From positions 5,062,501-5,126,500 of the forward strand of contig NZ_CP072913.1 in NCBI RefSeq assembly GCF_017968885.1: 64,000 bases of DNA. The letters run 5' to 3'. The translations under genes and the position numbers were made by a program. A model generated the notes under the pieces. That model ran no database searches. It was not told the DNA's origin and worked only from the letters and a program-made list of their open reading frames with translations. Of this stretch, positions 5,526 through 60,256 are shown one piece after another (the first letter of the stretch is position 1; the number at the start of each line of letters is the position of its first letter). Source of the stretch: Pseudomonas sp. Tri1 (lineage in GTDB: Bacteria; Pseudomonadota; Gammaproteobacteria; Pseudomonadales; Pseudomonadaceae).

Positions 5526-7184
5526 TCAGCTATAGATTTCGATAACGATTGAAGCTGGCTCGGAAGCGTTCCCCGAAGTATCCAACGCACAAACATCAAA
5601 TGTGTACGAACCTGGAAGCAGATCGACAGCGGTGTAATGGGTAAGTGGAGTAGTATCAAAATATTCACAGTTGTTATATATGACATAACCGAACACGCCA
5701 ATATCGTCAACCGACTCTTCCCAAGCCAGCGTAACTGAACTACCCGCCGAAGCAGTCTTACGCAAATTGCCTGGGACACTGGGTGGCGTCGTGTCTGTCG
5801 GCACATGGACAAGAGCAATTGGCTCGGATAATTGTCCGTAATAGTTGAACGTTTGCAGGCTTATGGAGTACTCAGTATCAGGAATCAAATTATTTAATCT
5901 ATACTCTTCAAGAAAAGCAGTATTTCTATAAGTTTCATTGATATTTACTCTAGTACCCGTCACGACCTCCCCCTCCCCCAGTGTCCACTGTAATAGAGCC
6001 GAAGTAGAAGTCAGGGGAGTTATGCGTACATCAGTTGGCGCAAGGGGCGCGAGTGTTGGCGTCTCGCCTGTGGTTTTGAACACCGTTACAGGGCCTGGCA
6101 CTGAAAGGTTCCCATCGGCGTCCAGAGCGCATACAAAAACCCAATAATAGGCGCCGCTGATTAAACCCAAGATTTTTTGGCTAGCATTCGTACTCCGGAG
6201 AACATAAGGAATACCATTCACGAAGACTCTATAGCCCGTCACCCCCACATTATCGCTTGACGGTGGCCATTGCAGATCCACTGAATGATCAGCGATGTTA
6301 GTCGCAACAGGCTGCCCAGGTCGCGTAGGAGGCTCAACGTCATACAGCACTGTTTCAAAAATAGTGACCTCCGACAGCTGCTCATCAAATTTGGCATAGA
6401 CCTCAAATCTGAAGGAGTGCGGAGGCGGCCCCGGGGATAGCTCGGCAAGCCTGAAACTTAAGCCTAGGGGCCCCGCTGAAAAGCGCCTTCCATTTATCGT
6501 AACCTCATGAGCCGGCCATATACCGAACATGGGATCCCACGAAAGCCTGCACAGTCCGGCATGATGCTTCAGCTTTAAATTTGACGGTGGTCTCAATAGT
6601 GTTCTGAAAGCCTCCTCGACAGGCTCGGATGAACCTACTGTATTGACCGCCACAACAGTAACTCGGTATTTGGCACCGCTTCGCAAATGCTCAAGGTTGA
6701 ACGAAGGCCGATCGACTTGCCCCACTATGAAACCATTGAGGTAAACCCTGTAGCGAGGGCTTCCGGCATTGCTGCTTGACGCAGCCCATTTAAGGTTCGC
6801 CGACCAAAACGACAGATTGCTCACCTCCAAAGATCCCGGCTGGCTGGGAGGCATACGCCTTACGCTCAAGACGTGAACACTGGGCTCCGATACCTTGTTC
6901 CCGGCTGCAATTGCCTTGATGGAAACGACGTAGGGGGCATCTGGCACCAGACCTGTTATTTCACAAGGTGGCTTTGCCACTGTTTTTGCAGGGAAACCTT
7001 CCACCACTACCTCATAACCAATGGCATCCGGGCATAACGGGCATGCGGAATAGGGTTCCTCCCAACTCAGCATGACACTGGATAATGTCTTCTGCGTATG
7101 CCTCACATGACCTGGAGCACACATTCGTACCGGAATGGCGACGACAGTGCTGACGGAATTATCCATAGTAGACGAACGGCTCAT
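5526..7184 (-). CDS. Fibronectin type III repeat protein
   Basis: A 552-residue protein made of about six FN3-like beta-sandwich repeats (roughly residues 20-108, 112-195, 198-285, 288-372, 380-467 and 470-552). Repeats show the alternating LxW...YRVYxNG...GxYxVxVxAxDxxGNxS pattern, for example VDLQWPPSSDNVGVTGYRVF. There is no signal peptide or membrane segment, and its codons are more AT-rich than the core genes. The start lies six bases after the stop of the upstream RHS1 fragment and in the same frame, so one UGA separates the two. It may bind sugars or protein surfaces, but no enzymatic motif is seen. Confidence 0.85.
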   Translation of the reverse strand: MSRSSTMDNSVSTVVAIPVRMCAPGHVRHTQKTLSSVMLSWEEPYSACPLCPDAIGYEVVVEGFPAKTVAKPPCEITGLVPDAPYVVSIKAIAAGNKVSEPSVHVLSVRRMPPSQPGSLEVSNLSFWSANLKWAASSSNAGSPRYRVYLNGFIVGQVDRPSFNLEHLRSGAKYRVTVVAVNTVGSSEPVEEAFRTLLRPPSNLKLKHHAGLCRLSWDPMFGIWPAHEVTINGRRFSAGPLGLSFRLAELSPGPPPHSFRFEVYAKFDEQLSEVTIFETVLYDVEPPTRPGQPVATNIADHSVDLQWPPSSDNVGVTGYRVFVNGIPYVLRSTNASQKILGLISGAYYWVFVCALDADGNLSVPGPVTVFKTTGETPTLAPLAPTDVRITPLTSTSALLQWTLGEGEVVTGTRVNINETYRNTAFLEEYRLNNLIPDTEYSISLQTFNYYGQLSEPIALVHVPTDTTPPSVPGNLRKTASAGSSVTLAWEESVDDIGVFGYVIYNNCEYFDTTPLTHYTAVDLLPGSYTFDVCALDTSGNASEPASIVIEIYS

Positions 7185-7190: not shown

Positions 7191-10100
7191 TCACCCAACT
7201 GAACTGACCTGGGTCAAGCGGCCCAAGGCATCGTAGTCCAAAAGGCGCCCCTCTTCGTCCAGGGTCATGTGACCGTCAGCGTCATATTCAAGCAATACTT
7301 CGGCAGGGTATCCGGCGACGCCCGCATTGGTCACTTTGCGCAGTTGTGTGCGATCCGTTGCGTCGTAGGTATAGATGGCAACGTTAGTGCCTTCAGGAGA
7401 TGTGGTGCTCACACGAGTCAGGTTATCTATCGCATCGAATCTGAATAACTGACTGATAATGGTCTTACCGTAAGGATCCACTGGCGGCTCGCTGCCCTCA
7501 CAGGTGTAGAGCACCAGCCGCCCGCGCGGATCGTATTCGTAAGTTTCCCTGCGCAACAACGTTTCCCCTTGGTACAGGGTTCGCTCGGTCAGTGCATCAA
7601 CTGCGTTATAGACCTGAGTCAGTTGCTGTTCGATACCGTCAAGATCAAAGTCACGCTGTATTTCACGACCCATTCCGTCGTAAAGCAGGCCAATGGTCAC
7701 GCGCTGCCCACTGGTGCTGTCCTGAGTACTGATGGAACTGAGCTGCCCGAGGCCATCATACGTAAAATCCGAGGACAGAATATCTGGACCAGATCGCTCC
7801 AAGCAGGTTCGCTCCAGACGGTTCGCCTTGTCGTAGGTGTATGACTGAGTTTGCTCAAGTACATCGGTATAGCTCAATAAAAGACCTAGCCGACTGTGCT
7901 TATAGTGCATTTCATAGTTATTTCCCTCCTGCACTCGCGTCTCGCTTTTCATTTCACCGGTCGTGAAATACTCACGCGAGAGTTCCAGCCCCCTTCCTTG
8001 CAACTGAGAAGTCGAGCGTTTTTACGGTCACGTACATATTCAGCCGTGATATCACCTGGTAAACGTCGTTGACTGGGTTCCTCACCTAACTGAGGTTGGT
8101 ACACATAGGTAATCAGTTGATTGCTAGCGGTAGTCAAGGTCGCCGGTTGAGTTTGTCCAGGGTTGTAGGTGAAACATTGCTTTCGCCCCCCCGTAATCGA
8201 TTCGACCATGCGTCCCAATCCATCGAAAACCTGTTGGCCCAATTCAATACCGTCAACACTTATTTCTGTCGGCAGGTCTTCCGAACTGTGCGATGCATAG
8301 CTGCGTCGAACCGTAGCACCACCGGGAAGGACGGTAGTGACCATACGGTCAAAAGCATCGTAGCTGTATTCGGTGGTTGCATCGCGTGCATCGGTTTCGC
8401 TGATCGTCCTCCCGAGCCCGTCATAGCCGTATCGATGCCGACTGATCAATGTTCCGTCAGTTTCGAAGCGTTCAACATGGTCAGGCTTCTCCAGCAAATT
8501 CAGGTAGGTCAATGTTTTACCGCTGACCTTCGCATCAACACCCGTTCCTTCCCGCCAGCCGGTCTGGATAGGGCCCTTCCATTGTGCCGAACCCATCGGG
8601 TTCGTTTCTTCGTAGACCTTGATACCGTCCGGCCCGGTGACGCTGCGCTGCATCCCCCATCCGTCGTATTCATAGCTGGAGGTCAAGGCCACCTGTTGCG
8701 CGTCCCGCCAGTCGTATTGAGTTTCCTCAATCAAGTTTCCCAACGTGTCATAACTTGCCGAGTAAGTCTGACGGTACTCTTCGGCACGCAAAGGATCGTC
8801 GGCATCCTGACGTTCTTCATACACCGGGCGATTGAGTCCATCGACACGCGTTAGGGTCTTCACGCCCTTGACGTCGGTCACTAATTGCTCGGCCCGCTGT
8901 CCATCCAGCGCAGTCAAAAGGTATGAATAATGACGTGTAGCCTCGAAATCCGGCTCGTCCGGGGCGACAGTTTCAGTCACTACGCGAGTCAGAGCGTCGT
9001 ACGTGTAGCGAATTCTCACTTCATTGTCGTCGCGCGTCAGCAGCGGTTGACCGTGAAGCAGGGAGTCTTCACTGACCGTCGTTTTGCGGACTTCGAAACC
9101 GGGCTTGTCATCGTAGCCGATGAAGGTTTCGGTGGTCTCCAAAACGGTTTCCCCAGCCAGTACGCTCGGCAGTTTGTCGTATTCGTACAGGATCCTGCTG
9201 GTGGTGCCGTTGAGGGTGGTTTCCTGGCTGGCCACTCGGCCGTGCAAAAACACGTTGCCCGGTAATTCGTGGTAACTGCGCAAAGTCTGTTGCAAGGTTG
9301 TTTCGTCATTGCCTTCAACTTGCAACAGGGTTTCGCATTCAACCGCCAGCCAGTCGTCTACTTCACTGCCGGTCAGCGGCTTGTGTGCCGTGTAGCGCAG
9401 GCGGGTGCGCAGCGTCGGCGCGCCGGGCTCGCCCTCGGGCGAAGGGATCACCGTGGTGTCTTTCAGGTTGCGTTGGAAACGGTCCGGCGGGCAGCCGTCC
9501 TCGCCATTCTTGGCGTAGTAGGTGTAGACGGTCTTGATGCCGCTGGGCTCGACCTGTTCGGTCTGGTTGCCATGCTCATCGTAAGCGCTGCGGGTGATTT
9601 CGGCGCGGTATTGGGTCGCGTCGTTGTCCAATTCCCAACTGGTGGTGACCTCCTTGGGAAACTGGAACTGCGGGACTTGGCGCTCGAAAGCCACATCCTC
9701 GGCGTAATACTGAGTCTTGACGCGCTTGATGCAGTGTTCCTGCGTGGTTTTTTCTTCCGTCAGCAGGTGAAAGCGGTTGTAGCGGCGTTCGACCTGGCGC
9801 ACCACCTGCCCGCCGACCATCAGGCTGGCGGTGCTGCCGTATTCATAGCTGGCATCGAGTTTGTACAGCGGGTCCATCCCGTCTTCCCAACTGACGGTTT
9901 CACCGGCGCCGAGAAAGTTACGGCCGGTGTAGCTGAAGACCATGTCGATCATCGTTTCATCGGCGTTCGATTGGCCGAAATCCGGGTAATTGCGATGGCG
10001 GGTGACCCGAGGCAGGTTGGCCCGCACGACGCCGCCCGGATAGGGATGGCCGGTGTCGGCGTACTCAATGGTTTCACAACCACCCACCGGGGTCTTGACC

Positions 10101-10837
10101 TCGTGTAGGCACAAAATGTTGCGGATCGGTCCGTTGCCATAGCCAAAACGCCAGGAACCCTTGTCAGGGGTGGGCAACACAATTTCCGTGACCCAACCGC
10201 TGGCGTTGAGCTTCATTTCATAGCGCGCCAGCGCCGCGCTGCCAGGGCCTTCGGGGCGCACGAGAATTTCCACCCACTCATCGCCGGCATGACGGTTAAT
10301 GCGCAGCAGCTCGCCTTGGGCGTCGTTGATGCTTTGCAGGCATTGTCCGCCCCGGAACGATGTATAGGCCAGCGTGAGGCTGTGACCGGCCGGCGACTTG
10401 AGGCTCACGGGCAAGGCGACCCGGGTAAGAACGCCGCCGACCTGGAGTTCCTCGACCATTCCGGACTTGTGCACGACGCGATAGCGGTCGTTGTCCAGCT
10501 TCTCGAAGTGGAAGCTGTCGAGTTTCTTTTCCTTGATGTCGGGGGTGGGACCGCTGCCGGTCACCTTGAAAGTCTCCCCGGTACTCAAGGCCAGGATGCT
10601 GTCTCTGGGCGTGAACTGAGTCAGGTTCAGGTTCCAGCCGACCCCGAAGCCGGAGTCCAGGATGTTGATCGGACTGAAGGTCAGGTTCAGCGGGAACGCC
10701 GGGCCGTTGAGCCAGTTGCTCTGGACTTCGGGCAAGTCGATGGAAACGGTGTATTGCCCGGTGCGGGGGTCGACGCCGCTTTGTAGATAACTCATGAAAC
10801 CGAATGCCTGGGAGTGCACGACACTGGAAGTAGTCAT
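7191..10837 (-). pseudogene. RHS1: frameshifted, C-terminally incomplete RHS/YD-repeat protein
   Basis: Two overlapping frames (10837-7949, 962 residues; 8003-7191, 270 residues) together make one RHS protein of about 1200 residues. The shift lies between about 7975 and 8003. Both frames align with the intact RHS2 at 18820, and residues ~18-570 are almost identical to it. YD repeats such as YTYDALTR and YSYDAFDRM fill the middle. The protein stops at LGRLTQVSSVG, just before the conserved RHS core end and the variable tip, so no toxin region is present. AGGAAG precedes the ATG. The shift could be a sequencing error, but the missing core end cannot be explained that way. Confidence 0.85.
9128..10785 (-). 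repeat. 1658-bp inverted repeat, left arm
   Basis: This segment of RHS1 is the reverse complement of 18872-20529 with no length difference. I saw only a few substitutions by eye (a silent GAC/GAT codon, Val/Ile, Glu/Lys). Identity ends sharply at both borders: the flanking coding sequence is related but clearly diverged. That pattern points to recent gene conversion or inversion. Confidence 0.9.
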
Positions 10838-10975
10838 GTTTTGTCTTCCTCGTAAATAAGGCTATCGACGTTTCTAGATACCCGAAAGAAAGCATCGGAA
10901 TATCCGGATCACACGGTAACTACATCGAACAGTCAATCCAGAACAAACAATCCGAAAACATAACACTACGCCTTG

Positions 10976-13873
10976 TCATCTTCGGCTCAGCACCAACTTA
11001 TTACGGCTATCCTCTTCGGATGGCGAGTCAAAACCAATTGCCAGGGAGTGGCGATTTCCTTCTTCATCGAGCAACACAATATGGATACCGGGATCCAGAT
11101 GCTGACGGTACAGCTTTCGCTTGTCGCCATTTGCCAGCCCGTCATACCAATACGTCATGTCGTCCGTTCGATGCATGCTGATAATCAACTCACCCTGCGC
11201 TGGTCCTCCACCGTCAAATGAAGTCTTGAGATTTTTTTGACGGATTCTCATCAACCCCCACAAATAGGGATCAAAGGACAACCCCTCAGGACTTGGACTG
11301 TCGGCATTTTCAAAATTAGCCGAATTGAAGGCATAGCCGGTATAGCTAAAGAATGTCTCGTCGACCAACTCACTTTCCCACCGCACAGTCGAAATATTGT
11401 TTTCGATGTACAAAGTGCTAAAGAGAACGGGATCGATACCCCGCCGCAAATAACTCAAATACCAGTAATCAATGGATTGACGATAATAGCTGAAATAATC
11501 CCACTCAGGATTCGTTTGGCTGGGCGGTGCATCGTGCCCATCTGCATCCTTCCATTTACGCACACGATTGAACTCATAATGGGACAGTGGAGGGGTCGTC
11601 GGCCGGATACCCTGCACTTCCACCTCATGATTTTCAGTTCTCTCATCGTTGGAGTTCTGAGTACCATAAGGCGAATCAAATTGCGCATAGAAGGTCCTGC
11701 TACCTTCTTGCGCAAGACATATATAAAGCTCGCGATAACGTACACCATTATTTTTTGGCATCGGCGGCGGCAATGGATAAGTTCGCGCCGCAGTGGGCGA
11801 AAAAAACCTGAAGCGGTTTCTAGTTTTGCTGGCAGCCCAAGGTGTATGACTGCCGTATTCAATGCCTTCCTGGCCCACAGCTATGAATGGAATTGGAACA
11901 TTCGTAATTTTATCGACCAACCTGAGCGTAGCCAGTTCAGCATCGCTCACGGGGATGTATTGCTGCGTTCCACCTACGGTGACTGATTTCGTTGCGATGG
12001 TAACGATAATGGGAATTTGCTGAAAACCATTACTGAAACAACTGTCCAAGCCATTATTGACGGCGATGGTAAACTCACTAAGTTCCAGCCAACGCGGCTC
12101 TGGTTGTACTTGTTCGGAAAGCTGGATAATGCTGAACCCGCTTGCCCTGGCTTGACCATTCACCAGATAAGAACATCTCACCACACTGATTCGGGACGTG
12201 GGCTGGGCGGGAGGTGTGTAGACCCCATTTTCATCCACGTCTCCCTCACCGATAACGCCCCATCGAACGTCATCTTCAGGCTCCAAATCGGCGTACAACC
12301 GAATCGGATCGCTTGCGGTTATCGCCGCAACATAGGGTGGGTCGACCGGCAGCGTGTGCGCCGCTTTCATCAACACGACTGTTGCTTCAATCGTCTCGTT
12401 GAACTGCGGATCGGTTACCCTGATTCTCTGCAAGGCTAACGGTTCGATCAGGCTGGCAGGTGGTGTATAGATCGCATGATAATTATCAACGACCTCAAGC
12501 GTGCCCTCCTCCGGTGAAAGCGTCGGCCATCGCAAGCTCCCACTGCCCAAGGTCGTCACGGTAATCTCGACGGGCGTGGAGTTACTCCCAACACCACGCA
12601 CGCACACCCTTGGCGAAATGTTCATGGTTTCGAAAACACCGAGCACCAAGGCCGAACTCTTCTGGAGCTTCCCGCCTTTCATGTACTGTGCCGTCACCAC
12701 GACTGGCTGTTGTTCTCTACCCATTCGTATTGGATCTGGCGCGGTATAGACCCCGCCCGTAGCGGTAATCGTACCCACCGAAAACGGGCTAAAAGGGTTG
12801 CTGACACTCCACTGAGCGCTAATGCTCGACCCGTTGCTCTTACGTGCAACAAATGTCTGAGGCAGGCCACCACTCTTCAAGCTGATGAACGCTGGTTCGA
12901 CGCTCACTGTTTCGGACGTTGGCTCAATATTACCCAACACCAATAAATCATGAGGCGTATGTCGTCCGTTATTACTTTCGATGAAAAAGTTGTCGCTTGG
13001 AAAAAGCAGATTCTTCAACACATCAAGCTGTACATCGTCGAGCAGCTCGATCCATTCGCTGTTCAGCACCAGTGCAGCCGAATAAAGACTCCGCCCGCCT
13101 GCCTTGTCGTCCGGAATCAGATAGGGGAAGTCACTGCCCTCAATCGGAAGCCCGTCCCCGTTTTCATCATGGATTTTCAGGCGAATGAATAGCACCACCG
13201 CACCATCCTCCGGATTATCGGAGGCGGGGGCTTTCTGCGTCCGAATGTAGAATCCGGTCGGGCTCAAAGGGTTATAGCCACTGAAGTCAAACAACCCCAG
13301 CTCAAAAACCCGTTGATCCTGCGGTAATACCGCCAAGCGGCTTTGGATTAACGCCGCTACGGGCTTGTCGACCCCGGGCATTCCCCCGAGATTACACGTC
13401 ATCGACAGATCGCTCGCCACATCCAGTGTCACCCGTCCCCGCTTATCCACTTCACCTTCAATCTGGTTCAGGCTCAGCTTCATCTGAATGTGGTAGCCCA
13501 TCGCTTCGGTAATATTGAAACTGGACAGCAAGCGGACCGCGCCCCCGCCGACCGGATGACTCCTGGCGGTATAACTGCCGCCTACGATGTTCATGGTTAA
13601 CGTCACCCTGGACTGATTCAGCGAAGCCGACTCGAATGACAACACCGGCTTACCCAGTAATAGCCCGTCCAATGTCATGGACTCCGTTCGATCATCCAGA
13701 TAGGCCACACCACTGATTGGCGGAATGAAGCGTCCTTCGTGCAACCAGGTTAAATATTGCGTTTCCAACAAGCGGTTGAGTTGTTCCCGACCAAAAGCGA
13801 CGATCGCTCCCCAACCGTAAGTGATCGAGCGTCCGCGCATTTTATTCAACAGACTTTCCAGTGAATTCGACAT
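10976..13873 (-). CDS. P47-like (TULIP-type) protein B with Ig-like repeats
   Basis: A 965-residue protein without a signal peptide. Residues ~1-320 resemble paralogue A next door: YGWGAIVAFG near the start, LTMNIVGGSY, FYIRTQ, GAVVLFIRL, YLIPDD and VLKNLLFPSDN. I recall a similar pattern from the P47/OrfX proteins of botulinum neurotoxin clusters, which have TULIP folds; this is unconfirmed. About 190 residues present in A (its ~280-465) are missing here. Residues ~320-630 hold three or so bacterial Ig-like domains with GxYTPP/GVYTAP motifs. The last ~330 residues are unrecognised. The start at 13873 has GGAG seven bases upstream. RHS1 follows after 138 bp. Confidence 0.7.
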   Translation of the reverse strand: MSNSLESLLNKMRGRSITYGWGAIVAFGREQLNRLLETQYLTWLHEGRFIPPISGVAYLDDRTESMTLDGLLLGKPVLSFESASLNQSRVTLTMNIVGGSYTARSHPVGGGAVRLLSSFNITEAMGYHIQMKLSLNQIEGEVDKRGRVTLDVASDLSMTCNLGGMPGVDKPVAALIQSRLAVLPQDQRVFELGLFDFSGYNPLSPTGFYIRTQKAPASDNPEDGAVVLFIRLKIHDENGDGLPIEGSDFPYLIPDDKAGGRSLYSAALVLNSEWIELLDDVQLDVLKNLLFPSDNFFIESNNGRHTPHDLLVLGNIEPTSETVSVEPAFISLKSGGLPQTFVARKSNGSSISAQWSVSNPFSPFSVGTITATGGVYTAPDPIRMGREQQPVVVTAQYMKGGKLQKSSALVLGVFETMNISPRVCVRGVGSNSTPVEITVTTLGSGSLRWPTLSPEEGTLEVVDNYHAIYTPPASLIEPLALQRIRVTDPQFNETIEATVVLMKAAHTLPVDPPYVAAITASDPIRLYADLEPEDDVRWGVIGEGDVDENGVYTPPAQPTSRISVVRCSYLVNGQARASGFSIIQLSEQVQPEPRWLELSEFTIAVNNGLDSCFSNGFQQIPIIVTIATKSVTVGGTQQYIPVSDAELATLRLVDKITNVPIPFIAVGQEGIEYGSHTPWAASKTRNRFRFFSPTAARTYPLPPPMPKNNGVRYRELYICLAQEGSRTFYAQFDSPYGTQNSNDERTENHEVEVQGIRPTTPPLSHYEFNRVRKWKDADGHDAPPSQTNPEWDYFSYYRQSIDYWYLSYLRRGIDPVLFSTLYIENNISTVRWESELVDETFFSYTGYAFNSANFENADSPSPEGLSFDPYLWGLMRIRQKNLKTSFDGGGPAQGELIISMHRTDDMTYWYDGLANGDKRKLYRQHLDPGIHIVLLDEEGNRHSLAIGFDSPSEEDSRNKLVLSRR

Positions 13874-13909
13874 GATCATTCTCCAGCCATTAGCGTGAGT
13901 GCCAGGAAC

Positions 13910-16306
13910 TTACTGGTCATCGGCACAGAACATCTGGATCGTTTCGGGCACACTGAACAGCGGCAACGGCAGGACAATGTAGCCATCATCCGAAGCTCCA
14001 CCCGGCCTCGCGGGAGGCGCCAGGACGGTAACGACCACAAACTTGTCCGGTCCTGCTGGATTCAAGGTCAGCAAACCGGTAACGGCATCGATTTGCGCAG
14101 AGCCACCGCCCAGCAACACCTGCCATGTCTCGCCCCAGTCACCGGGGTTGATGGGACCGTCCTCGCCCATGATCGACAACTGGAGCTGGTTTTCCGGCAA
14201 AACGGCGGCTTCGTTGATTGCCACTTCAAGCAGCGCTGTTCGATGCAACACCAGCACGCTGGTTTTCTCGCTCACGCTGGTCCGGGGGTTGGTCACCACA
14301 ATCGTGTCGACGGTAGGCGGCGATTTGGCGATCGGCGGCCCCGGCACATAGCTGTGGTCCTTGCCGTCGGCGGGATTGGGTCTTACCACCGCACCGGAGT
14401 CCGGATCCTCCATGGACCAAATCAGCGCCCCGCCGTCCGCGGCACCGGCCGATACGTCGTGGGCCAGGGAGTCCCCGGCCGTCGCGATCATGATCAGCGG
14501 GTTGATGGCCATGCTCCGGCTCGTGATACTCACCAGCGCCGAGCTGATGTGGGTGCCGTCGGTGGCAGTGATCACCACCCGGATGGAACTGCGGGGCATC
14601 TCGGCGGCGGTGGGCGGGGTGTATAGGCCCGCGTTGGTGATGCGGCCCTTGGGAACGGTTTCGCCGAGGATATTGCGCACGGACCACGTTAGGTTGTCGC
14701 GACGCGGTTCGGTATGGAACTGCCGCGCGACCGTGTGGGGGATGATCGGCTCAAGGTCGGTGATGCTGAAGGCGGTTTGTGTGGGGCCGACCTGGCCGAA
14801 CAGCGCCCAATCAGTTGGCGTGTGAACGCTTTGAAGGCTGATCGAATTCTCGCCACGGAATAGTAGACTATTAAGCGTAAATACATTGAGAACGGGTAAT
14901 GTTGAGATAAATCTCTCATAGGCTGCATCAATGGTCGACACTATTTTATTTTTAAAAATGCCAAGGAGCACCTCATGCGACTCAGCGGTTTTAAAAAAAC
15001 TCTCCAACTCAGGCGAGGGATTTACTGTGTAGTGATCTACAAGCTGCTTTTCTCGCTTTCTAAAAACCAGATTCCCGCCCTCAATCAAAAGCTCAAAGCC
15101 TAGGGATGTCTGGTAACCAAAATGAACTTGCCCCGGCACATTGAGCATCGACTCCATATACCGGCGAAGAGTGACTGATTGCGACTTAAAGCCAACCACG
15201 GCCAAGCCACAATACTGTATAGCAGACCCGGTCCACATAACATAGCCGGGTGTCACGAAGGAGAAATACGTCGAAATATCTCCCCTATCAGCAAAAAAAT
15301 CCAGCTCAAGATACGGAATTTCCATATCGCACAAAGAGTTACTCTCCACGCCCCAAGGTTCTTTAATCCCTCCCTTAGTTCCCCGAATCCCATAAAAAAT
15401 CTCATCCTGCATGATATCTCTGTATGCAAACTCCGGCATTTGGTTAACTTTTTTCAGCCCCTCACCCATCACCTGTTCTTTGACCATGTCGCACCCGAGC
15501 AATACCGTAACAGTATGTCCCTCTGGCAACAGATACTTCAGGTCGGCATTGTCGATAGGAGCAGTACCGTTGGCTTCTCCTTCCATCGCGACAAATAACA
15601 GTACCGCGCCTTCACCTTCGTCTTCATTAGCCAATAGCCTCGTACCCGAACCCTGTTTGTTATGGGTACGGATAATGAACTTCGAAGGCTTTAGAAACTG
15701 ATTCGGTTCAAATCGCAAATCGTTCAGCACGAAAATTTTCTGCTCTGGCGGCAACCCTCTGAAATGCGTCTTGAAGCGTTCTCCTGCGACTCGCTGCAGA
15801 TGCTCGGACGGCATGTCGATCAACCGATAATTGCTGCCTTCCGAAATATCGAGTTCCACCCGCCCAGCCGAACTCACCGAACCAGTGCTCGCCATCAGAT
15901 CAATGTCAAACTTAAGCCCTGGCCCATCCAATACATCTTTCTCGGATATTCTGGTGAGCGACCATTGTTGGGCGCCCTCAAATTTAGTGAATGACAGATG
16001 AGTGCCACCGACCTCTTTCATCGTTAACTTTGCTGAAGAACTCTGCAAATTTGAACCCACAAATGAAAGCCGCGGTGCGTCCATCTGGTAGTTATGCAAA
16101 AAATCCTTATGCGTCGGCGTCGTATTGTCCCGTATCTCCTCGGTGATCGGCTGCATATAATCACCGGTTCCGAAGCGGGTAATGTACTCCTGCATCAAGA
16201 CCTTATTGGTCTCACTGCGCCCATAGGCCAGAACCGCCCCCCAGCCTAATGTACGGGGTTTTACCTCAAGCCAGTCCAACAGTGCGTCTACAGAATTGAT
16301 TTCCAT
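13910..16306 (-). CDS. P47-like (TULIP-type) protein A with Ig-like tail
   Basis: A 798-residue protein without a signal peptide. Motifs include LGWGAVLAYGR (20-30), LTMKEVGG (94-101), LKFDIDL (131-137), FIIRT (210-214), GAVLLFVAMEG (233-243), YLLPEG (258-263) and LNVFTLNSLLF (473-483), followed by a tract similar to the TPHDLLVLG of paralogue B. The layout resembles P47/OrfX proteins, a TULIP-fold family possibly binding lipids or other proteins; this is an inference. Residues ~520-798 carry Ig-like modules (GRITNAGLYTPP). The middle third is visibly more AT-rich than both ends, so the gene is mosaic. GAGAGGG precedes the ATG, and gaps to its neighbours are 36 and 45 bp. Confidence 0.7.
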   Translation of the reverse strand: MEINSVDALLDWLEVKPRTLGWGAVLAYGRSETNKVLMQEYITRFGTGDYMQPITEEIRDNTTPTHKDFLHNYQMDAPRLSFVGSNLQSSSAKLTMKEVGGTHLSFTKFEGAQQWSLTRISEKDVLDGPGLKFDIDLMASTGSVSSAGRVELDISEGSNYRLIDMPSEHLQRVAGERFKTHFRGLPPEQKIFVLNDLRFEPNQFLKPSKFIIRTHNKQGSGTRLLANEDEGEGAVLLFVAMEGEANGTAPIDNADLKYLLPEGHTVTVLLGCDMVKEQVMGEGLKKVNQMPEFAYRDIMQDEIFYGIRGTKGGIKEPWGVESNSLCDMEIPYLELDFFADRGDISTYFSFVTPGYVMWTGSAIQYCGLAVVGFKSQSVTLRRYMESMLNVPGQVHFGYQTSLGFELLIEGGNLVFRKREKQLVDHYTVNPSPELESFFKTAESHEVLLGIFKNKIVSTIDAAYERFISTLPVLNVFTLNSLLFRGENSISLQSVHTPTDWALFGQVGPTQTAFSITDLEPIIPHTVARQFHTEPRRDNLTWSVRNILGETVPKGRITNAGLYTPPTAAEMPRSSIRVVITATDGTHISSALVSITSRSMAINPLIMIATAGDSLAHDVSAGAADGGALIWSMEDPDSGAVVRPNPADGKDHSYVPGPPIAKSPPTVDTIVVTNPRTSVSEKTSVLVLHRTALLEVAINEAAVLPENQLQLSIMGEDGPINPGDWGETWQVLLGGGSAQIDAVTGLLTLNPAGPDKFVVVTVLAPPARPGGASDDGYIVLPLPLFSVPETIQMFCADDQ

Positions 16307-16351
16307 GACAAAACCCTCTCACTGAACAGGATCGGCGACTGAGATTCTGAT

Positions 16352-18118
16352 TTAGCGAACCAGCGTCACCGTGGTATTTCTAAAGGGCGTGAATGTTTCA
16401 CCACCGTCGAAACTGACACGTGCAGTTAGTGAAAAACTTTCACCGTTTTGGAGTTTTTCCAGAAAATCTCTTTTAGGCAGTTTCGCCTCTACCCTTTTGT
16501 TTCGGAATTCGGCCTCTGTGACCGGCTGGGCATTACGAACCGGATAGGATAGTTGGGCTGCGCTGGCTTCCATCGTCAATAATTGCCCTTCTGCCATGAA
16601 TGGCCATGCATCGAACCCCGAAGACTCAATGACCAGGTCTGCACCGCTGAATGGCACGTTGGACAACAACATCTGGTTGCCCGTGATGTGTATGGAGGTC
16701 GTAAACGGATAGCGGGTTTCCGGTAAGGGCGTGATCAACAGGTTGAAATGAACAGAGTCCTCGTCCTCCACCTTGTAGAACACCGGAAAATAGCGGCCTT
16801 GGGCGACCGTCGCCATGTTGGCCGCGATAGCGGTGGCGGGAATATGAAAACGCCTGCCCGAAACAGGCACTGTCGTCGTATAGCGCCCACCGTTTGGATG
16901 CCCCTGCCAATGCACTTCCACTGAGCCGGAGCCGACCTCTGCTGTTTCAGGGATCCTGACATATGCGCCACTGGTACTTGCTTGCAATGTCCCCTGGTTC
17001 TCTGCACCAGGGGTGGCGTCCTCGATAATCGGCGGGGGCAGGTATAACGGCTTGCTAATGTCCAGAAGCAAGGGTTCGGCCGCAAGGGCAGCACCCGCCC
17101 GGGCGTACTGATAAACCACTTTCACCTGGCTATTGCTGTTGGCTGTCAGCCATTGCGGCTCGACATGAAATTCAATGAGTGCGCTGTCCAGGATCGAACG
17201 ATCGACCCGCAGTGCCTTGGTGACACTCTTGATCTTTTCGCTGCCCGTCCAGTACAGCAGTACCCAGTCGTTTTCCTGGATATCTGGATAAACCGGCTCC
17301 ACCTGCAAGGTCAGGCCACTGGGATAATGTCCGGGATTGATCGGGCCCCCGGTGTAGCCCTTGACCGTAATAGTAGGCAACAAGGCAGAGGCGGGTTCGA
17401 CAATATCGATTCTCTGCGGCTCGGACTCACTGACCTGTGCAGATTGACCGGCGTATTGAACGCGGTAGCTGATATCGGCATGTTCACCCGCAATGCCAAC
17501 AATCTCGATATACGGCACGGTGAATGTCAGAGGCTGGCCCAGATGTTCGGCCCTGATTTCCTTGGATTCGCGATACACGGGTTCTGGTAGGCCCTGGAAA
17601 AAGCCTTGCCAACTGAAAATGACCTCATCGGCGATGCTCATGGCCTGGTAGGGTGGTACCACGGCGGTAGCCCCTGCCGAAAGGACGTTTCTGGGATCCA
17701 CCGAGCGCTCGTGAGATTCCTTTATTTGCACAACAGGCAGCTTGCGTTTCCCTACGTAGCACAATATTCGAAGCGATTCCGGCCCTGGGTCATCAGGGTC
17801 ACCAGGTGAGGCCACGGCATAGGAATAAAACACCAGCCCCTGATCCAGTTGCCTGAGCAGATCATGGGGAATGTTCACTGGCATTCCCCGCTCGGGGGTA
17901 TAGCCGCCACTTTCTGTCACATCCACTCGAGAATCGCTGAAGTCGGCCACTTCACCTTGTGCGCCATACCCTAGCCAGTGCGGCCAAAGCACATCGCCGA
18001 TAGTCATACCGGGAAACTTGATATAGGTGAGCAATGGAGCATTGCTCAATTGCTCCAGGTCGATCCAATCACCGGGCTGTAAAGCCGGGATCTCTGGACG
18101 CGGGTTCAAGTCGGCCAT
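16352..18118 (-). CDS. Ig-like repeat protein (first gene of the P47/RHS1 operon)
   Basis: A 588-residue, Pro- and Val-rich beta protein with no signal peptide. The repeats read like bacterial Ig-like sandwiches, with recurring DxVxLxWxG (NDWVLLYWTGSE) and a terminal VSFDGGETFTPF. The same ending, VSFDGGNTW, closes the protein at 23988, so the two are relatives. I use the start at 18118 (MADLNPRPEIP); an upstream in-frame start would add 26 atypical residues. It is the promoter-proximal gene of the minus-strand set. I do not recognise a specific function; a structural or binding role is possible. Confidence 0.7.
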   Translation of the reverse strand: MADLNPRPEIPALQPGDWIDLEQLSNAPLLTYIKFPGMTIGDVLWPHWLGYGAQGEVADFSDSRVDVTESGGYTPERGMPVNIPHDLLRQLDQGLVFYSYAVASPGDPDDPGPESLRILCYVGKRKLPVVQIKESHERSVDPRNVLSAGATAVVPPYQAMSIADEVIFSWQGFFQGLPEPVYRESKEIRAEHLGQPLTFTVPYIEIVGIAGEHADISYRVQYAGQSAQVSESEPQRIDIVEPASALLPTITVKGYTGGPINPGHYPSGLTLQVEPVYPDIQENDWVLLYWTGSEKIKSVTKALRVDRSILDSALIEFHVEPQWLTANSNSQVKVVYQYARAGAALAAEPLLLDISKPLYLPPPIIEDATPGAENQGTLQASTSGAYVRIPETAEVGSGSVEVHWQGHPNGGRYTTTVPVSGRRFHIPATAIAANMATVAQGRYFPVFYKVEDEDSVHFNLLITPLPETRYPFTTSIHITGNQMLLSNVPFSGADLVIESSGFDAWPFMAEGQLLTMEASAAQLSYPVRNAQPVTEAEFRNKRVEAKLPKRDFLEKLQNGESFSLTARVSFDGGETFTPFRNTTVTLVR

Positions 18119-18293
18119 GGAAAAATGCCTTGGAAATTCGAGTGCAATAGAACATCGGAAATCACACTGTAGATTTCGATGAAAGGCGTTGTCCACTAAC
18201 AGAACTGCTAGGTTTCAGGCAACTTTTCAAGTGGTAACGTTGAATCCTGATGCTGTCGTCTCATCCACAACCACTCGCATGGGCCATGTCACT

Positions 18294-18779
18294 ATGAAGT
18301 ACATCAAAGCCTTCGTTTTCGGCTTATTGCTGAGCAACTATCTTGTCTATTCTAGCTCTGCCTTTTCTGCGACAGGCACCATAATACTTAGAGATAAGGA
18401 AAATGCTATTTGCTCTTTTGACCTGCCAGAACCAGGCCAGACCAAAACGTACAGTTTTACCATCGAGCCTTATCCTTGCGAACGCTGGGATAACAGAGCC
18501 CGCACAATCCAATTAGCAGAAGTGCCTTCAGCCACTATCATTTTGCTGAGTGATTTCGGGGGCTGCCTGACGAGTGGATATACCTGGTTGAAGCTCAAGA
18601 CAACAAAGAAACAAACCTCCACATCAATTCAGCCCATTGAATACCTCACAACCTACAGAAAAAATCAGATAATTGAACCAGGATTGCAAATGGTTGACTT
18701 GGAAGTCACAGAAGAATTCAGAGACAAGCTTTCTTGCATCCAGATAACAACCTCGGCAGCACCACCTTCTTCGCCTTAA
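18294..18779 (+). CDS. Small exported protein with four cysteines
   Basis: A 161-residue protein with a signal peptide (about 1-25, MKYIKAFVFGLLLSNYLVY...). The mature part has four Cys (in ICSF, PCER, GGCL and SCIQ), enough for two disulfides, and alternating beta-type hydrophobics. I chose the ATG at 18294 because it begins the signal peptide. It lies 40 bp upstream of RHS2 on the same strand and is probably cotranscribed. It might be a partner or protective protein for RHS2, but there is no direct support and no family is recognised. Its base composition is AT-rich against the genome. Confidence 0.65.
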   Translation: MKYIKAFVFGLLLSNYLVYSSSAFSATGTIILRDKENAICSFDLPEPGQTKTYSFTIEPYPCERWDNRARTIQLAEVPSATIILLSDFGGCLTSGYTWLKLKTTKKQTSTSIQPIEYLTTYRKNQIIEPGLQMVDLEVTEEFRDKLSCIQITTSAAPPSSP

Positions 18780-18819
18780 CCTCATTCAAATTCTGATCTC
18801 TAACAATGAGAAACGGGCC

Positions 18820-21800
18820 ATGACCATTTCAAAAACCGTGCACTCCCAGGCATTCGGATTCCTGAGCTACGTACAAAGCGGCGTCGACCCCCGCACCGGG
18901 CAATACACCGTTTCCATCGATTTGCCCGAAGTCCAGAGCAACTGGCTCAACGGCCCGGCGTTCCCGCTGAACCTGACCTTCAGTCCGATCAACATCCTGG
19001 ACTCCGGCTTCGGGGTCGGCTGGAACCTGAACCTGACTCAGTTCACGCCCAGAGACAGCATCCTGGCCTTGAGTACCGGGGAGACTTTCAAGGTGACCGG
19101 CAGCGGTCCCACCCCCGACATCAAGGAAAAGAAACTCGACAGCTTCCACTTCGAGAAGCTGGACAACGACCGCTATCGCGTCGTGCACAAGTCCGGAATG
19201 GTCGAGGAACTCCAGGTCGGCGGCGTTCTTACCCGGGTCGCCTTGCCCGTGAGCCTCAAGTCGCCGGCCGGTCACAGCCTCACGCTGGCCTATACATCGT
19301 TCCGGGGCGGACAATGCCTGCAAAGCATCAACGACGCCCAAGGCGAGCTGCTGCGCATTAACCGTCATGCCGGCGATGAGTGGGTGGAAATTCTCGTGCG
19401 CCCCGAAGGCCCTGGCAGCGCGGCGCTGGCGCGCTATGAAATGAAGCTCAACGCCAGCGGTTGGGTCACGGAAATTGTGTTGCCCACCCCTGACAAGGGT
19501 TCCTGGCGTTTTGGCTATGGCAACGGACCGATCCGCAACATTTTGTGCCTACACGAGGTCAAGACCCCGGTGGGTGGTTGTGAAACCATTGAGTACGCCG
19601 ACACCGGCCATCCCTATCCGGGCGGCGTCGTGCGGGCCAACCTGCCTCGGGTCACCCGCCATCGCAATTACCCGGATTTCGGCCAATCGAACGCCGATGA
19701 AACGATGATCGACATGGTCTTCAGCTACACCGGCCGTAACTTTCTCGGCGCCGGTGAAACCGTCAGTTGGGAAGACGGGATGGACCCGCTGTACAAACTC
19801 GATGCCAGCTATGAATACGGCAGCACCGCCAGCCTGATGGTCGGCGGGCAGGTGGTGCGCCAGGTCGAACGCCGCTACAACCGCTTTCACCTGCTGACGG
19901 AAGAAAAAACCACGCAGGAACACTGCATCAAGCGCGTCAAGACTCAGTATTACGCCGAGGATGTGGCTTTCGAGCGCCAAGTCCCGCAGTTCCAGTTTCC
20001 CAAGGAGGTCATCACCAGTTGGGAATTGGACAACGACGCGACCCAATACCGCGCCGAAATCACCCGCAGCGCTTACGATGAGCATGGCAACCAGACCGAA
20101 CAGGTCGAGCCCAGCGGCATCAAGACCGTCTACACCTACTACGCCAAGAATGGCGAGGACGGCTGCCCGCCGGACCGTTTCCAACGCAACCTGAAAGACA
20201 CCACGGTGATCCCTTCGCCCGAGGGCAAGCCCGGCGCGCCGACGCTGCGCACCCGCCTGCGCTACACGGCACACAAGCCGCTGACCGGCAGTGAAGTAGA
20301 CGACTGGCTGGCGGTTGAATGCGAAACCCTGTTGCAAGTTGAAGGCAATGACGAAACAACCTTGCAACAGACTTTGCGCAGTTACCACGAATTACCGGGC
20401 AACGTGTTTTTGCACGGCCGAGTGGCCAGCCAGGAAACCACCCTCAACGGCACCACCAGCAGGATCCTGTACGAATACGACAAACTGCCGAGCGTACTGG
20501 CTGGGGAAACCGTTTTGGAGACCACCGAACTCTTTACGGGTTTTGATGGCATTGAAAAAGCGACGTCCCAGCAAAACTCGCTGATCACCGGTGAAATGGT
20601 GCTATCCAGCGACGTCGATGGGGTGCAACTGCTTCGCCAGTTCGATGCCCTGGGTCGGGTGATCAAAGAAATCGTCTCGCCATCGTCACCCGACGTTAAA
20701 GCCGAACGCCTCTTCAGTTATACATTGACCGGCGTCGACGGCCAAAAAGCGTCGCATAGCGTGACTGACGTCAGCGGCGTCACCACCCTCACGCGCTTCG
20801 ATGGCCTGGGACGAACGATTTATCAAGAACGGATCGAGAATGCGAAAGCGCCACGCCAGATCTATGCGGCCAGCTACGACAAGTTGGACAACCTGATCGA
20901 AGAGGTCCGCTATGACTGGCTGGAAGATAAGCCCATGCCTTTGCGCCAGGGCTTCGAATACGATGCCTGGGGTGTTGCCCACCGCGTGACCATGGCCGAT
21001 GGCGTTGTGAGTCGCTACCTATGGTCGCCTTTCGGCCTCAGCGGCCCCATTGAGTACCAATGGCTGGAAACGCCGGAAACCGAAACGACAACGATCATCA
21101 GCGGCCTGACCAGCAGCCAGTACAACGACTTCGGCAAGTTGGACCGCTTCGAGCGATTGGACGCGCAGCCCTTGGTCGATCTGTGCCGCCAACAGCCCGA
21201 ACGCCCGGTAGAGGAGCACTTGCGCCACCTGCTTGGGATGACGGGGCTGCCTATCGTAGGCGCGGTCGAATACACCTACGACGGCAAGAGCAACTGCGTA
21301 AAACAAATCGAACTGTATGACGAGCAGGAGCGCGAGACGCTCTTTGCCTATGACGCGTGGGGTCGAATGGAAGCCACCACCATGCCCGACCACACCGTCA
21401 TTGGCCGGACGTTCGCCGAGCACAGCTTCGGCGAACAGACCACCCGCTTGAGCGTGAAACCCAGCGCCAAGCCCCTCGTCACTGTCGGCCAACAGGCATT
21501 CGACAGCCTCCAGCGCATGACCGAGCGGCGCGTCGGTTCGACGGCCAATCCGCGAATCGAGGCCTTCAAATACACCGGGGGCCAGATGCAGCCCAGCCAA
21601 CGAATCAGCCCGGCCAATGAAGTCTTCGAGTATGAATACAAACCCGAACTGACCCTGCAACCTGTAGCGGTCACCAGTGCCAGGGATGAATCAGCGACTT
21701 ATGCCTATGACCTCAAGACCGGAGCGATCACCCGCGCGCAAAACAACCAAGGCCAGCGGGAATATCGCTATACCGATACCGGTGCGCTGGAGTACGAGAG

Positions 21801-23805
21801 CTGGACCGACATCGACGGCACACGGATAGAGACCACTTACCTGACCTCTCTCCTGGGGCGGCAGATTCGGCGAAGTCACACTGACGGCCTGGAAACCGTT
21901 TATACCTATGACGATTTCGGGCGTGCCGAGACCGTAGTTCAGGGTGCGCTCAATGCCGACTTCGATTACGACCCACTGGGCCAGTTGTGTCGCACGACGA
22001 CTCGCAGCCCGACCTCGACACTAACCGCCGATATCAAGCATGACCTGCAAGGCCGAGAGGTCGAGCGGACTTTGACTGTCAATAATCAGCCCCCACGGGT
22101 CATTACCCAAACCTGGCAAGGCGACAATCAACTCAAGAACCGCCAAGTGCTCCTGGACGGCACCTGTGTGCTCGATGAAGCGTTCATATACGACTCACGC
22201 AACCGACTCGTCCATCACACGTGCACGGGCAGCCTCCTGCCCAAGGATGCTTATGGCAACCCCATCGTCAGCCAGTTATTCAGGTTCGATGAGCTGGATA
22301 ACATCCTGCGAGTGACGACCCAATTCGAGGGTGGTCTTAGCGATATCGCAGTATTTACCTACGACCCCGATGATCCTTTCCAACTGAATCGGATCACCCA
22401 TACCTATACCGCCGGTGGCTATCCCGAGCTCCTCGAGTTCGAGTACGACGCCAATGGGCGCATGCTCAACGACGAACACAATCGACGCCTGGTCTACGAC
22501 GATCATGGTCGCCTGGTGGCTGTAAAGGATTCGCAAGGGCAAGCCCTGGTGAGCTATCGCTATGATGGGCATGATCATTTGGTTGGGGTCCGCCAGGGTG
22601 ATGGACACGAAACCCTGCGGTTCTATCAGGGCTACAACCTCAGCCACACGTTGCACAATGGAACCGGCACCCAGTACCTGTTTCATGGCGAGCGGCCATT
22701 GGGTCAACAGCAAATCAATGACCATGACGAAGCCATCTTGCTGTTGACCGACGCCAGCCCCCATGTCATCGGCCAGTGTGTGCAATCGGATGTGCGCACT
22801 GTCGCGTACAGCGCCTACGGCATTCGCAGCAGTGATGATGCTTTGCACAGCTTGCTGGCGTTCAACAGTGAGTTGTGTGAGAACGACGATAACTGGTATC
22901 TGCTGGGTCGCGGCTACCGCGTGTATAACCCCAACCTGATGCGTTTTCACAGTCCGGATTCGTTCAGTCCGTTCGGCTCGGGCGGGATCAACCCCTATGC
23001 GTATTGCCTGGGGAATCCGATTACATTCCGAGACCCTAGCGGGCATCGGCCCGCCTACGGTGCCTATGGTGGTCGTCCGGAAGATCCGGGGTATATCGAC
23101 CCCATCGAACAGCCCAAGCAATCTATATGGGGGAAAATAGCGACTTACGCTTTTGCAGCGATTGCGCTGGTTGGCGCTATTTTTTCAGCCGTCGTGACTG
23201 GAGGGGCGACGGCAGCACTGGTCGGTTTAGCAATAGTAACCATTGGTGTTGGATTAACCATATATGGAACTGAAGCAGGCAACGAAGCGATAACTACCGT
23301 AGGCTTGGTGTTAACCGCCCTGGGTGGACTCGTGAGTGGTGGTGCATATTTAGGCGGAAAATTTGGTGGCAAAAGCGCTCCTGCCGTCTCCAGCTCACCA
23401 AGGTCTAGTATTTCGAGCAGTAACAGTGGTTCCGCAAGTAGACGCCCTAGCGTCAGCCCTAGAAACAGTACTGCTGGCACTCCGGGAGAAGATCCATTGC
23501 CAGCCCAACAAAACAGCAGCAGAACAAATGAAGCGCTCTATTTTTACCAGTCCGAGAACACGGTTGAACGTTCAAATCATACTAGCGTGCGAATTCCACG
23601 TCCTGACTATGATGATCCCCTCCCTACGAGTAACTATGCCTCCACCAGGTCAGGGGCAAATACCCCACCGCCGCCCAGACTTAAATCGGCACGAGAACTG
23701 TCTGACGAACAGATAGGAACCCTAAATACACGACAGAAAGAACAGCTAGGAAAAGTCACAGTTTTAACCGGAGGTTTTTATAGAAAACCAGGCTGGATTG
23801 TTTAA
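18820..23805 (+). CDS. RHS2: intact RHS/YD-repeat protein with variable C-terminal tip
   Basis: A 1661-residue RHS protein. Residues 1-~570 form a non-repeat N-terminal section (HSQAFGF...GVDPRTGQYTVSIDLPE), shared almost identically with RHS1. YD repeats follow to ~1330. The core end reads YNPNLMRFHSPDSFSPFGSGGINPYAYCLGNP and closes with DPSGHRP at 1405-1411. The ~250-residue tip begins with about three hydrophobic segments (~1433-1512), then a Ser/Pro-rich linker and a short charged end. No known toxin motif is seen. RHS shells typically enclose and release the tip. No signal peptide or PAAR/VgrG partner is present, and no immunity ORF follows. Confidence 0.92.
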   Translation: MTISKTVHSQAFGFLSYVQSGVDPRTGQYTVSIDLPEVQSNWLNGPAFPLNLTFSPINILDSGFGVGWNLNLTQFTPRDSILALSTGETFKVTGSGPTPDIKEKKLDSFHFEKLDNDRYRVVHKSGMVEELQVGGVLTRVALPVSLKSPAGHSLTLAYTSFRGGQCLQSINDAQGELLRINRHAGDEWVEILVRPEGPGSAALARYEMKLNASGWVTEIVLPTPDKGSWRFGYGNGPIRNILCLHEVKTPVGGCETIEYADTGHPYPGGVVRANLPRVTRHRNYPDFGQSNADETMIDMVFSYTGRNFLGAGETVSWEDGMDPLYKLDASYEYGSTASLMVGGQVVRQVERRYNRFHLLTEEKTTQEHCIKRVKTQYYAEDVAFERQVPQFQFPKEVITSWELDNDATQYRAEITRSAYDEHGNQTEQVEPSGIKTVYTYYAKNGEDGCPPDRFQRNLKDTTVIPSPEGKPGAPTLRTRLRYTAHKPLTGSEVDDWLAVECETLLQVEGNDETTLQQTLRSYHELPGNVFLHGRVASQETTLNGTTSRILYEYDKLPSVLAGETVLETTELFTGFDGIEKATSQQNSLITGEMVLSSDVDGVQLLRQFDALGRVIKEIVSPSSPDVKAERLFSYTLTGVDGQKASHSVTDVSGVTTLTRFDGLGRTIYQERIENAKAPRQIYAASYDKLDNLIEEVRYDWLEDKPMPLRQGFEYDAWGVAHRVTMADGVVSRYLWSPFGLSGPIEYQWLETPETETTTIISGLTSSQYNDFGKLDRFERLDAQPLVDLCRQQPERPVEEHLRHLLGMTGLPIVGAVEYTYDGKSNCVKQIELYDEQERETLFAYDAWGRMEATTMPDHTVIGRTFAEHSFGEQTTRLSVKPSAKPLVTVGQQAFDSLQRMTERRVGSTANPRIEAFKYTGGQMQPSQRISPANEVFEYEYKPELTLQPVAVTSARDESATYAYDLKTGAITRAQNNQGQREYRYTDTGALEYESWTDIDGTRIETTYLTSLLGRQIRRSHTDGLETVYTYDDFGRAETVVQGALNADFDYDPLGQLCRTTTRSPTSTLTADIKHDLQGREVERTLTVNNQPPRVITQTWQGDNQLKNRQVLLDGTCVLDEAFIYDSRNRLVHHTCTGSLLPKDAYGNPIVSQLFRFDELDNILRVTTQFEGGLSDIAVFTYDPDDPFQLNRITHTYTAGGYPELLEFEYDANGRMLNDEHNRRLVYDDHGRLVAVKDSQGQALVSYRYDGHDHLVGVRQGDGHETLRFYQGYNLSHTLHNGTGTQYLFHGERPLGQQQINDHDEAILLLTDASPHVIGQCVQSDVRTVAYSAYGIRSSDDALHSLLAFNSELCENDDNWYLLGRGYRVYNPNLMRFHSPDSFSPFGSGGINPYAYCLGNPITFRDPSGHRPAYGAYGGRPEDPGYIDPIEQPKQSIWGKIATYAFAAIALVGAIFSAVVTGGATAALVGLAIVTIGVGLTIYGTEAGNEAITTVGLVLTALGGLVSGGAYLGGKFGGKSAPAVSSSPRSSISSSNSGSASRRPSVSPRNSTAGTPGEDPLPAQQNSSRTNEALYFYQSENTVERSNHTSVRIPRPDYDDPLPTSNYASTRSGANTPPPPRLKSARELSDEQIGTLNTRQKEQLGKVTVLTGGFYRKPGWIV
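18872..20529 (+). repeat. 1658-bp inverted repeat, right arm
   Basis: The right arm, inside RHS2, matches 9128-10785 in inverted orientation. The arms flank an 8.1-kb core (10786-18871) holding the P47-like, Ig-like and exported-protein genes. The ends fall at GTACAAAGCGG and at ACCACCGAA, after which the two RHS genes diverge. Confidence 0.9.
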
Positions 23806-29957: not shown

Positions 29958-30086
29958 GTTATCGCTCTCCGTATTCACACCTTGCTGCCATGGGTCCCCA
30001 TGACGCTTCAGTTCGAAAAGCAGACCGATTTCTACCGGGCACTGCCAGATGTCTCCCGTCGTTCTGCACGTGAGCGAAGTAAGCGC

Positions 30087-39164: not shown

Positions 39165-39251
39165 GGAAGCTCTCCGTTGAGATTGGATAACGGCGGGCGG
39201 GCATAAAAAGGACGGCAGCGAGCCTGGCATCGCCCACCGTGATGCCGTTGG

Positions 39252-39440
39252 ATGGATCAGGCCGGTCTCCGGGCTCATGAGCGGCGCAATGCCGGGCTGT
39301 GCGCCTTCCCATGTCGGCGACACAGTGGCTTAGGCACAGCGTTGACTCATTTACCGTTGCGGGGGCAGCGCCGGGTTCGTGTGCACTCACCGGCTTCCCT
39401 GTTTCACTCTGTCGACCGTGGTCACAGAGCACCTGAAACA
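39252..39440 (-). promoter_or_regulatory. Cobalamin riboswitch
   Basis: In minus-strand order, the leader shows GGGAAGCCGGTGAGTGCAC, then CGCTGCCCCCGCAACGGTAA, then the B12 box AAGCCACTGTG (about 39319-39331). These are the conserved blocks of the AdoCbl riboswitch. About 90 bp separate it from the cobO ATG. B12 binding should repress the operon. A GC-rich stretch followed by CCTTTTT around 39205 could be its expression platform. Confidence 0.93.
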
Positions 39441-39604
39441 AGCGGCGAAGGTTAGAGGGTTGGGGGTGGAGCGTCAATTAAAGCCGCCTGTCGGGGCAAT
39501 CATTGGCGCCCATCAATAAAGTGACGCCAATCTTGTGTGATTCTGCGGCAAGTGATATCAAAGCGACACTACGACCCGATATCACAAAAACAAGAGGGCA
39601 AAGC

Positions 39605-40189: not shown

Positions 40190-40218
40190 CTCAATCCACG
40201 CTAGAACCGCGGGAGAAA

Positions 40219-40311
40219 CTGTGGGAGCGCGCTTGCTTGCGATAGCGGCGGGCCAGTCAATAACAATGCATCTGACGGACCGCTATCGCGAGCAAGCTCG
40301 CCCCCACAGGT
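40219..40311. repeat. REP inverted pair
   Basis: CTGTGGGAGCGCGCTTGCTTGCGATAG-type (slightly degenerate) and CTATCGCGAGCAAGCTCGCC face each other about 35 bases apart, in the gap after the hypothetical gene. Confidence 0.85.
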
Positions 40312-49187: not shown

Positions 49188-49230
49188 GCCTGGGCTTCCT
49201 GATCACCCAAATGAACCTGCGGGCAATGAA

Positions 49231-49733: not shown

Positions 49734-49750
49734 GAATTGGCGATGAAAAT

Positions 49751-60237: not shown

Positions 60238-60256
60238 ACCTTGAGCCAGCACAAAC

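Follow-up and report, generated by a model that had tools for sequence, protein, structure and literature searches.

Two divergent RHS genes with near-identical inverted 5' parts enclose a P47-like gene core that occurs in both orientations among Pseudomonas species

We studied a 64,000-nucleotide stretch of the chromosome of Pseudomonas sp. Tri1 (contig NZ_CP072913.1, positions 5,062,501 to 5,126,500; in the following the window, in whose coordinates all positions are given), in which two divergent RHS genes enclose a group of genes for P47-like proteins. The enclosed core segment (10838..18819) comprises four genes, three on the minus and one on the plus strand. The minus-strand genes are, in order of reading, the Ig-like gene (16352..18196, 614 amino acids (aa), without Pfam match), P47-like A (13910..16306, 798 aa, a P47/OrfX fold followed by an Ig-type region) and P47-like B (10976..13879, 967 aa), which is the last core gene on that side and is followed after 138 bp by RHS1. 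On the plus strand, a small open reading frame (ORF) for an exported protein (18294..18779, 161 aa) lies 40 bp upstream of RHS2 (18820..23805, 1661 aa). That is, the core of this window consists of two divergent units with an RHS gene after each. This agrees with the preliminary description of the locus, which had placed P47-like, Ig-like and exported-protein genes between two inverted arms.

The arms are the 5' parts of RHS1 (9128..10785, minus strand) and RHS2 (18872..20529, plus strand). They align in inverted orientation and without gaps over 1658 bp with 3 mismatches (99.8% identical), while outside the arms RHS1 and RHS2 are only about half alike. Arms of equal length and near identity within diverged RHS sequence, as first described, are thus what the alignment gives. 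Between the arm ends and the start codons (10837 for RHS1, 18820 for RHS2) homology continues with lower identity, and it stops at the start codons. The whole genome contains two copies of the arm sequence and no others.

Beyond its arm, RHS2 comprises an R2-type tail, an Rhs core domain and a divergent C-terminus. The domain scan found RHS/YD repeats (PF05593) and the Rhs core domain TIGR03696 (69.2 bits, cut-off 32.5) in RHS2; for TcB-type domains, Pfam returned RHS_repeat only and there was no PDB sequence match. The RHS2 C-terminus diverges more than the remainder of the protein: identity to the relative G298 is 74% in the middle part, 75% in the core and 33% at the C-terminus, and to G039 it is 80%, 83% and 35%, respectively. 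RHS1 is read in two frames on the minus strand, i.e., 7949..10837 (962 aa; arm and start of the R1-type tail) and 7191..8003 (270 aa; R1-type tail). RHS repeats were found in it by the same scan, and the Rhs core domain was found in neither frame. The frame change lies at 7949-8003, near the gene end. In G298, the R1-type gene is one longer ORF of 1218 aa, and in P. citri (G551) the respective place is spanned by a 686-aa open frame that starts near the arm end. The change in RHS1 is either real damage or a sequencing error. RHS2, on the opposite side of the core, is intact.

With regard to the core proteins, P47-like B aligns to P47-like A with 30% identity over residues 4-258 (E-value 2.9e-22). 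The P47 fold of P47-like A was found by fold comparison alone; no P47 family sequence match was obtained in Pfam or, using a profile, among PDB sequences.

Next, we compared the cluster among relatives, using 398 genomes sampled from the genus (a second draw returned the same genomes). Including this genome, P47-like A has matches in 79 and the arm DNA in 82 of them, many of the latter being short pieces only. Both cluster sides were taken from 57 relatives, which were picked by a match to the arm or the P47-like genes of this window without looking at core orientation, so that the set leans to relatives of this window. Three further genomes (G157, G227, G342) are represented by single stretches and stay outside the counts. 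Divergent RHS arms were found on both sides in 56/57 relatives, with no arm seen in G045. In 55 of those 56, the arms flank P47-like genes, mostly together with the Ig-like gene; in G370, the Ig-like gene is the direct neighbour of either arm, with the P47-like genes beyond the arms. A match to the small exported ORF is present in 27/57 relatives (E-value at most 0.01). G298 (loci L065 and L066) carries this ORF twice, and its two copies of P47-like A match each other at 91-92% in some stretches.

The two RHS tails of each relative were assigned to type R1 or R2 according to their resemblance to RHS1 and RHS2 of this window. We call the orientation state 1 if P47-like B abuts the R1 tail (as here) and state 2 if it abuts the R2 tail. 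G045 (P47-like genes, no arm) and G370 (P47-like genes outside the arms) were left out of the state counts, such that 55 relatives and this genome form the callable set of 56. For 8 genomes, the state was taken from gene order and arm identity from the best blastn piece; G391, for which there was no such piece, was entered as below 85%. One tail of G290 was first labelled R1 and then, by score ratio, R2.

State 1 is observed in 51/56 and state 2 in 5/56 genomes, namely G039 (P. kilonensis), G331, G110, G313 and G018. On a tree of the R2 tails, this amounts to at least 4 state changes. Between G110 and G200, each a single-contig genome, collinearity holds for both tails and for the genes of the flanks (67-98% identical), and the order of the core genes is reversed. 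The same is seen between the drafts G331 (on two contigs) and G251, where flanks and tails are collinear and the core including the small exported ORF is inverted, and between the draft of P. kilonensis G039 and this window, where left flank and R1 tail are in place on one contig and the core is reversed. An inversion had been predicted to bring the P47-like unit in front of the R2 tail and the exported ORF next to R1. The first is what defines the state 2 genomes, and the second is found in G039, G018 and G313, in which the small exported ORF adjoins R1; in G331, the adjoining arm is truncated where the contig stops, which leaves R1 by elimination, and in G110 the ORF was not found at the given E-value limit. 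The preliminary description thus proved right in that the core can be inverted relative to the tails. Core orientation across relatives had been set beforehand as a test, with one common orientation counting against switching; both orientations were found.

An obvious concern is that arms exceeding the read length allow an assembler to guess the orientation in between. The P. citri matches (G551) and contigs of G039 and G331 stop within the arms, as such an artefact would produce, and in G110, whose reads may have been of this kind, the two arms are the same over nearly 2 kb. On the other hand, G110, G200 and G018 are single-contig genomes, in G200, G331 and G039 the two arms show 2.5-10% difference (for G039 and G331 measured over 920 and 1063 aligned bases) and are hence distinguishable, and a single contig of G331 holds the R2 tail, the arm and P47-like B together. 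We consider it unlikely that guessed orientations explain the state 2 calls. P. citri, the nearest relative found, illustrates the problem: there is no match to arm positions 273-1587 in its contigs of at least 3 kb, and the matches on three contigs stop at these boundaries. Indirectly, this is the pattern to be expected if identical arm copies had been collapsed in the assembly.

We then compared the two arms of each genome with each other. Where alike, they are so over about 1.5-2.6 kb, with identity beginning at the start codon and reaching up to 100% at the DNA level, while its outer end varies between genomes. Since the blocks end at differing points, the identity appears to be driven by homology and not by a fixed site. 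In G110, G366, G018 and G313, the arms are 99-100% identical in nearly all bins over about 1.9-2.4 kb of DNA, flanked by sequences of 33-60% identity. The arms of G110 and of G366 are identical at the DNA level, synonymous sites included, and therefore point to recent recombination in these two genomes. The likeness of the arms is, to judge from such alignments, due to recombination, beyond what selection at the protein level alone would give. In G370 (loci L095 and L096), the arms are a mosaic of blocks near 100% and near 50% identity, and both RHS ORFs are short.

The same contrast of arms and tails is reflected in the respective protein trees (of 97 genes, a usable tail was lacking in 13 and a usable arm in 4). 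The two arms of one genome are sisters in 25/44 genomes, while the two tails of one genome are sisters in 3/36, G366 among them. In G366 and G110, some identity runs beyond the arm end used for the trees (about 2 kb in G110), and their tails are drawn together in the tree because of it. Of the 25 sister arm pairs, 11 are separated by less than 0.2 changes per site and 6 by more than 1, so that not every such pair represents a recent conversion.

Gene conversion without any inversion was the simple alternative offered at the outset. It would account for arms homogenised within genomes, and that part stands for a number of them. It leaves unexplained the inverted cores between collinear flanks and tails, which rule out conversion as the whole story on the evolutionary scale; as sole process, we give it next to no probability. 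Arm conversion and core inversion can instead be products of one recombination process.

Next, we related arm identity to orientation. All 5 flipped genomes have arms of at least 89.8% identity, while among the 51 unflipped ones 8 have arms of at least 85% and 43 lie below. That is, 5/13 genomes with arms of at least 85% identity are flipped compared to 0/43 below this value (Fisher p=3.4e-4 for the 56 genomes, uncorrected for kinship). Treating the sister genomes G018 and G313 as one yields p=1.5e-3, and in an earlier set of 48 genomes, arms of at least 85% were found in 5/5 flipped vs. 8/43 unflipped genomes (p=7.5e-4). The pattern is in line with inversion by homologous recombination between similar arms, and with an orientation that is frozen between diverged ones. 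It is silent on which came first, since recombination itself also makes arms alike.

Which agent might drive the exchange was addressed by a search for recombinase genes. In site-specific inversion systems, such as Hin/Gin and the shufflons, a constant 5' part is joined to alternative 3' parts, and the layout found here, i.e., divergent genes with common 5' parts, resembles such tail-fibre or shufflon switches. In contrast to these systems, no recombinase was found among the 19 scanned proteins in and beside the locus. The whole genome was searched for the families PF00239 and PF00589: PF00239 is absent, and the three PF00589 genes (at 0.91, 1.22 and 6.46 Mb) are all far from the window at 5.06-5.13 Mb, none within 1.3 Mb of the locus. 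Inversion by a nearby PF00239 or PF00589 recombinase was rejected on this basis. Furthermore, the arms of 1.5-2.6 kb do not have the form of short fixed recombination sites, and their variable outer ends disfavour such sites. Site-specific inversion is thus very unlikely in our assessment, and we infer RecA-type recombination as the agent.

Taken together, we propose the following. The cassette would be widespread in Pseudomonas and consist of two divergent RHS genes with tails of different type (R1 and R2) behind a common, recombining 5' half. If these inverted halves recombine homologously without exchange of flanks, the arms would be converted and thereby kept alike; with crossover, the same recombination would invert the core (8 kb here). 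Because the core here consists of two divergent units, an inversion would give the P47-like unit the other RHS tail as its end, and would likewise place the other tail behind the exported-protein gene. That homologous recombination between the arms both converts them and inverts the core is, in our view, probable.

Several observations weigh against this proposal or against frequent switching. Besides the kinship that the Fisher tests leave uncorrected apart from G018 and G313, a tree-aware pair test of arm identity against state found 4 pairs only and has no power. The evidence for inversion lies between species, and since 51/56 genomes share one orientation, inversion is uncommon across the genus. 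The drafts G039 and G331 have contigs that end inside the arms, and the single-contig genomes may in principle come from reads shorter than the arms. Both tails of G200, G144, G362 and G396 match R2 best and were typed by score ratio, although for G200 a direct comparison agrees with the typing. In the tail tree, a clade of 34 R2 tails includes the R1 tails of G110 and G370; for G110, the R1/R2 typing was confirmed by direct comparison. Checked for whether they move together with the core, the first 54 bases of the arms show no clear sorting by side or tail in the nearest genomes (two P. citri rows, off by one base, were left out). Between P47-like B and the RHS gene, the gap is 557-660 bp in 12/44 relatives (e.g., G371, G383, G192), which leaves room for an own gene or promoter. 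Finally, if the frame change in RHS1 is real, the present orientation joins the long unit to a damaged gene, and its coupling to RHS1 may be idle in this strain.

In most relatives, the spacing is tighter: over all 44 measured, the median distance from P47-like B to the RHS start is 82 bp, and among the flipped genomes, four of which were measured, it spans 75-115 bp. This suggests that the long unit and the respective RHS gene are co-transcribed. A consensus promoter scan gave 3 promoter-like sites in 18100-18900 (0.9 expected) and none in 10750-11100; these scans are uninformative. In this genome and the nearer relatives, a gene is found upstream of each RHS gene on both sides and in both states. 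An inversion may thus affect level or pairing and not act as an on/off switch, since the other RHS gene has an upstream gene too. For the same reason, the idea of a switch that selects which RHS end is expressed stands only in part: the pairing of core and tail does change between species, while "expressed" is better put as "coupled to which operon".

What the inversion is good for is a separate question. It is possible, though short of an even chance, that inversion serves as a slow adaptive switch between the RHS tails that accompany the P47-like proteins. A somewhat bolder version, which we put forward tentatively, is a phase variation free of a dedicated recombinase. The core would flip within clonal populations, subpopulations would thereby differ in which of the two RHS tails goes with the P47-like proteins, and arm conversion would serve as upkeep of the switch, lost where the arms diverged and froze in orientation 1.

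The same recombination might also act without any switch. Here, conversion would keep the N-terminal RHS halves alike for common partners, and inversion would be a rare by-product, tolerable because each RHS gene keeps a core gene upstream in either state. The upstream genes on both sides and the prevalence of orientation 1 (51/56) are in line with this, and so is the integrity of the RHS genes: RHS ORFs shorter than 1150 aa make up only 7/95 in 49 relatives (one of them at a contig end), such that both copies are mostly intact, though RHS1 is broken here. Against it stand the DNA-identical arms of G110 and G366, where recombination was recent, and the flipped share of 5/13 among genomes with arms of at least 85% identity, which is above what a costly accident suggests. 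We regard the by-product explanation as having close to an even chance.

We also compared the cluster with known systems. In the S-layer sap locus of Campylobacter fetus, divergent homologues with common 5' parts surround an invertible segment that holds partner genes; recombination takes place between the common 5' parts, and a single promoter drives only one of the genes at any time. Here, too, long near-identical inverted arms form the 5' parts of two divergent genes, and the segment between them occurs in both orientations, in our case between species. The differences are that RHS and P47-like proteins are concerned and not an S-layer, and that neither RHS gene lacks an upstream gene in either state. 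The sap locus seems to be the closest case known to us.

For Rhs genes of Enterobacteriaceae, homologous recombination in the conserved part, said to require very high identity, has been proposed to re-pair variable C-termini (PMC2935791). Re-pairing via a conserved part is shared with the present case, while the process outlined there is a displacement of tips via circular intermediates, and the words "inversion" and "inverted" do not occur in the main text of that source (PMC2935791). In the orfX-p47 clusters of other bacteria, P47-type proteins are encoded beside RHS-repeat and Ig-like-domain genes, as in this window; the portion of the source available to us describes neither a Pseudomonas cluster (the word "pseudomonas" appears a single time, within a reference) nor a double inverted RHS arrangement (PMC7020563). 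As P47-type genes adjoin RHS-repeat toxin-like genes there (PMC7020563), a secreted toxin-like role of the cluster is a fair inference. In the open-licence literature, we found no description of an inversion of Pseudomonas RHS/P47 clusters.

A widespread Pseudomonas RHS-P47 cluster thereby gains a testable genetic behaviour. Its members form a natural gradient, with identical and flippable arms at one end and diverged, apparently frozen arms at the other, and they offer a handle on the role of P47-type proteins alongside RHS proteins. If true, the proposal describes a choice of tails run by general recombination alone. It is also a warning that assemblies can break at, or guess through, such arms.

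Some neighbouring features complete the picture of the window. A fibronectin type III protein gene (5526..7184, minus strand; Pfam fn3, E-value 1.5e-35) sits after RHS1 where many relatives match the Rhs core domain; G298 has the same gene after R1. On the other side, the EXP2 neighbour (23988..25490, minus strand) lies outside the invertible part and is kept beside the cluster in many relatives. Next to it and to 27993-29978, an autotransporter with a pertactin-like part is found at 25620-27821. In many relatives, all three are kept next to the cluster; they lie on the R2 side in this window and on the R1 side in others. An ordinary cobalamin riboswitch is located at 39243-39451 (minus strand) near cobalamin genes. 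Finally, a palindromic repeat of about 95 bp, which we take to be REP-like, is present in four copies (40216-40310, 49222-49328, 49739-49847, 60253-60350).

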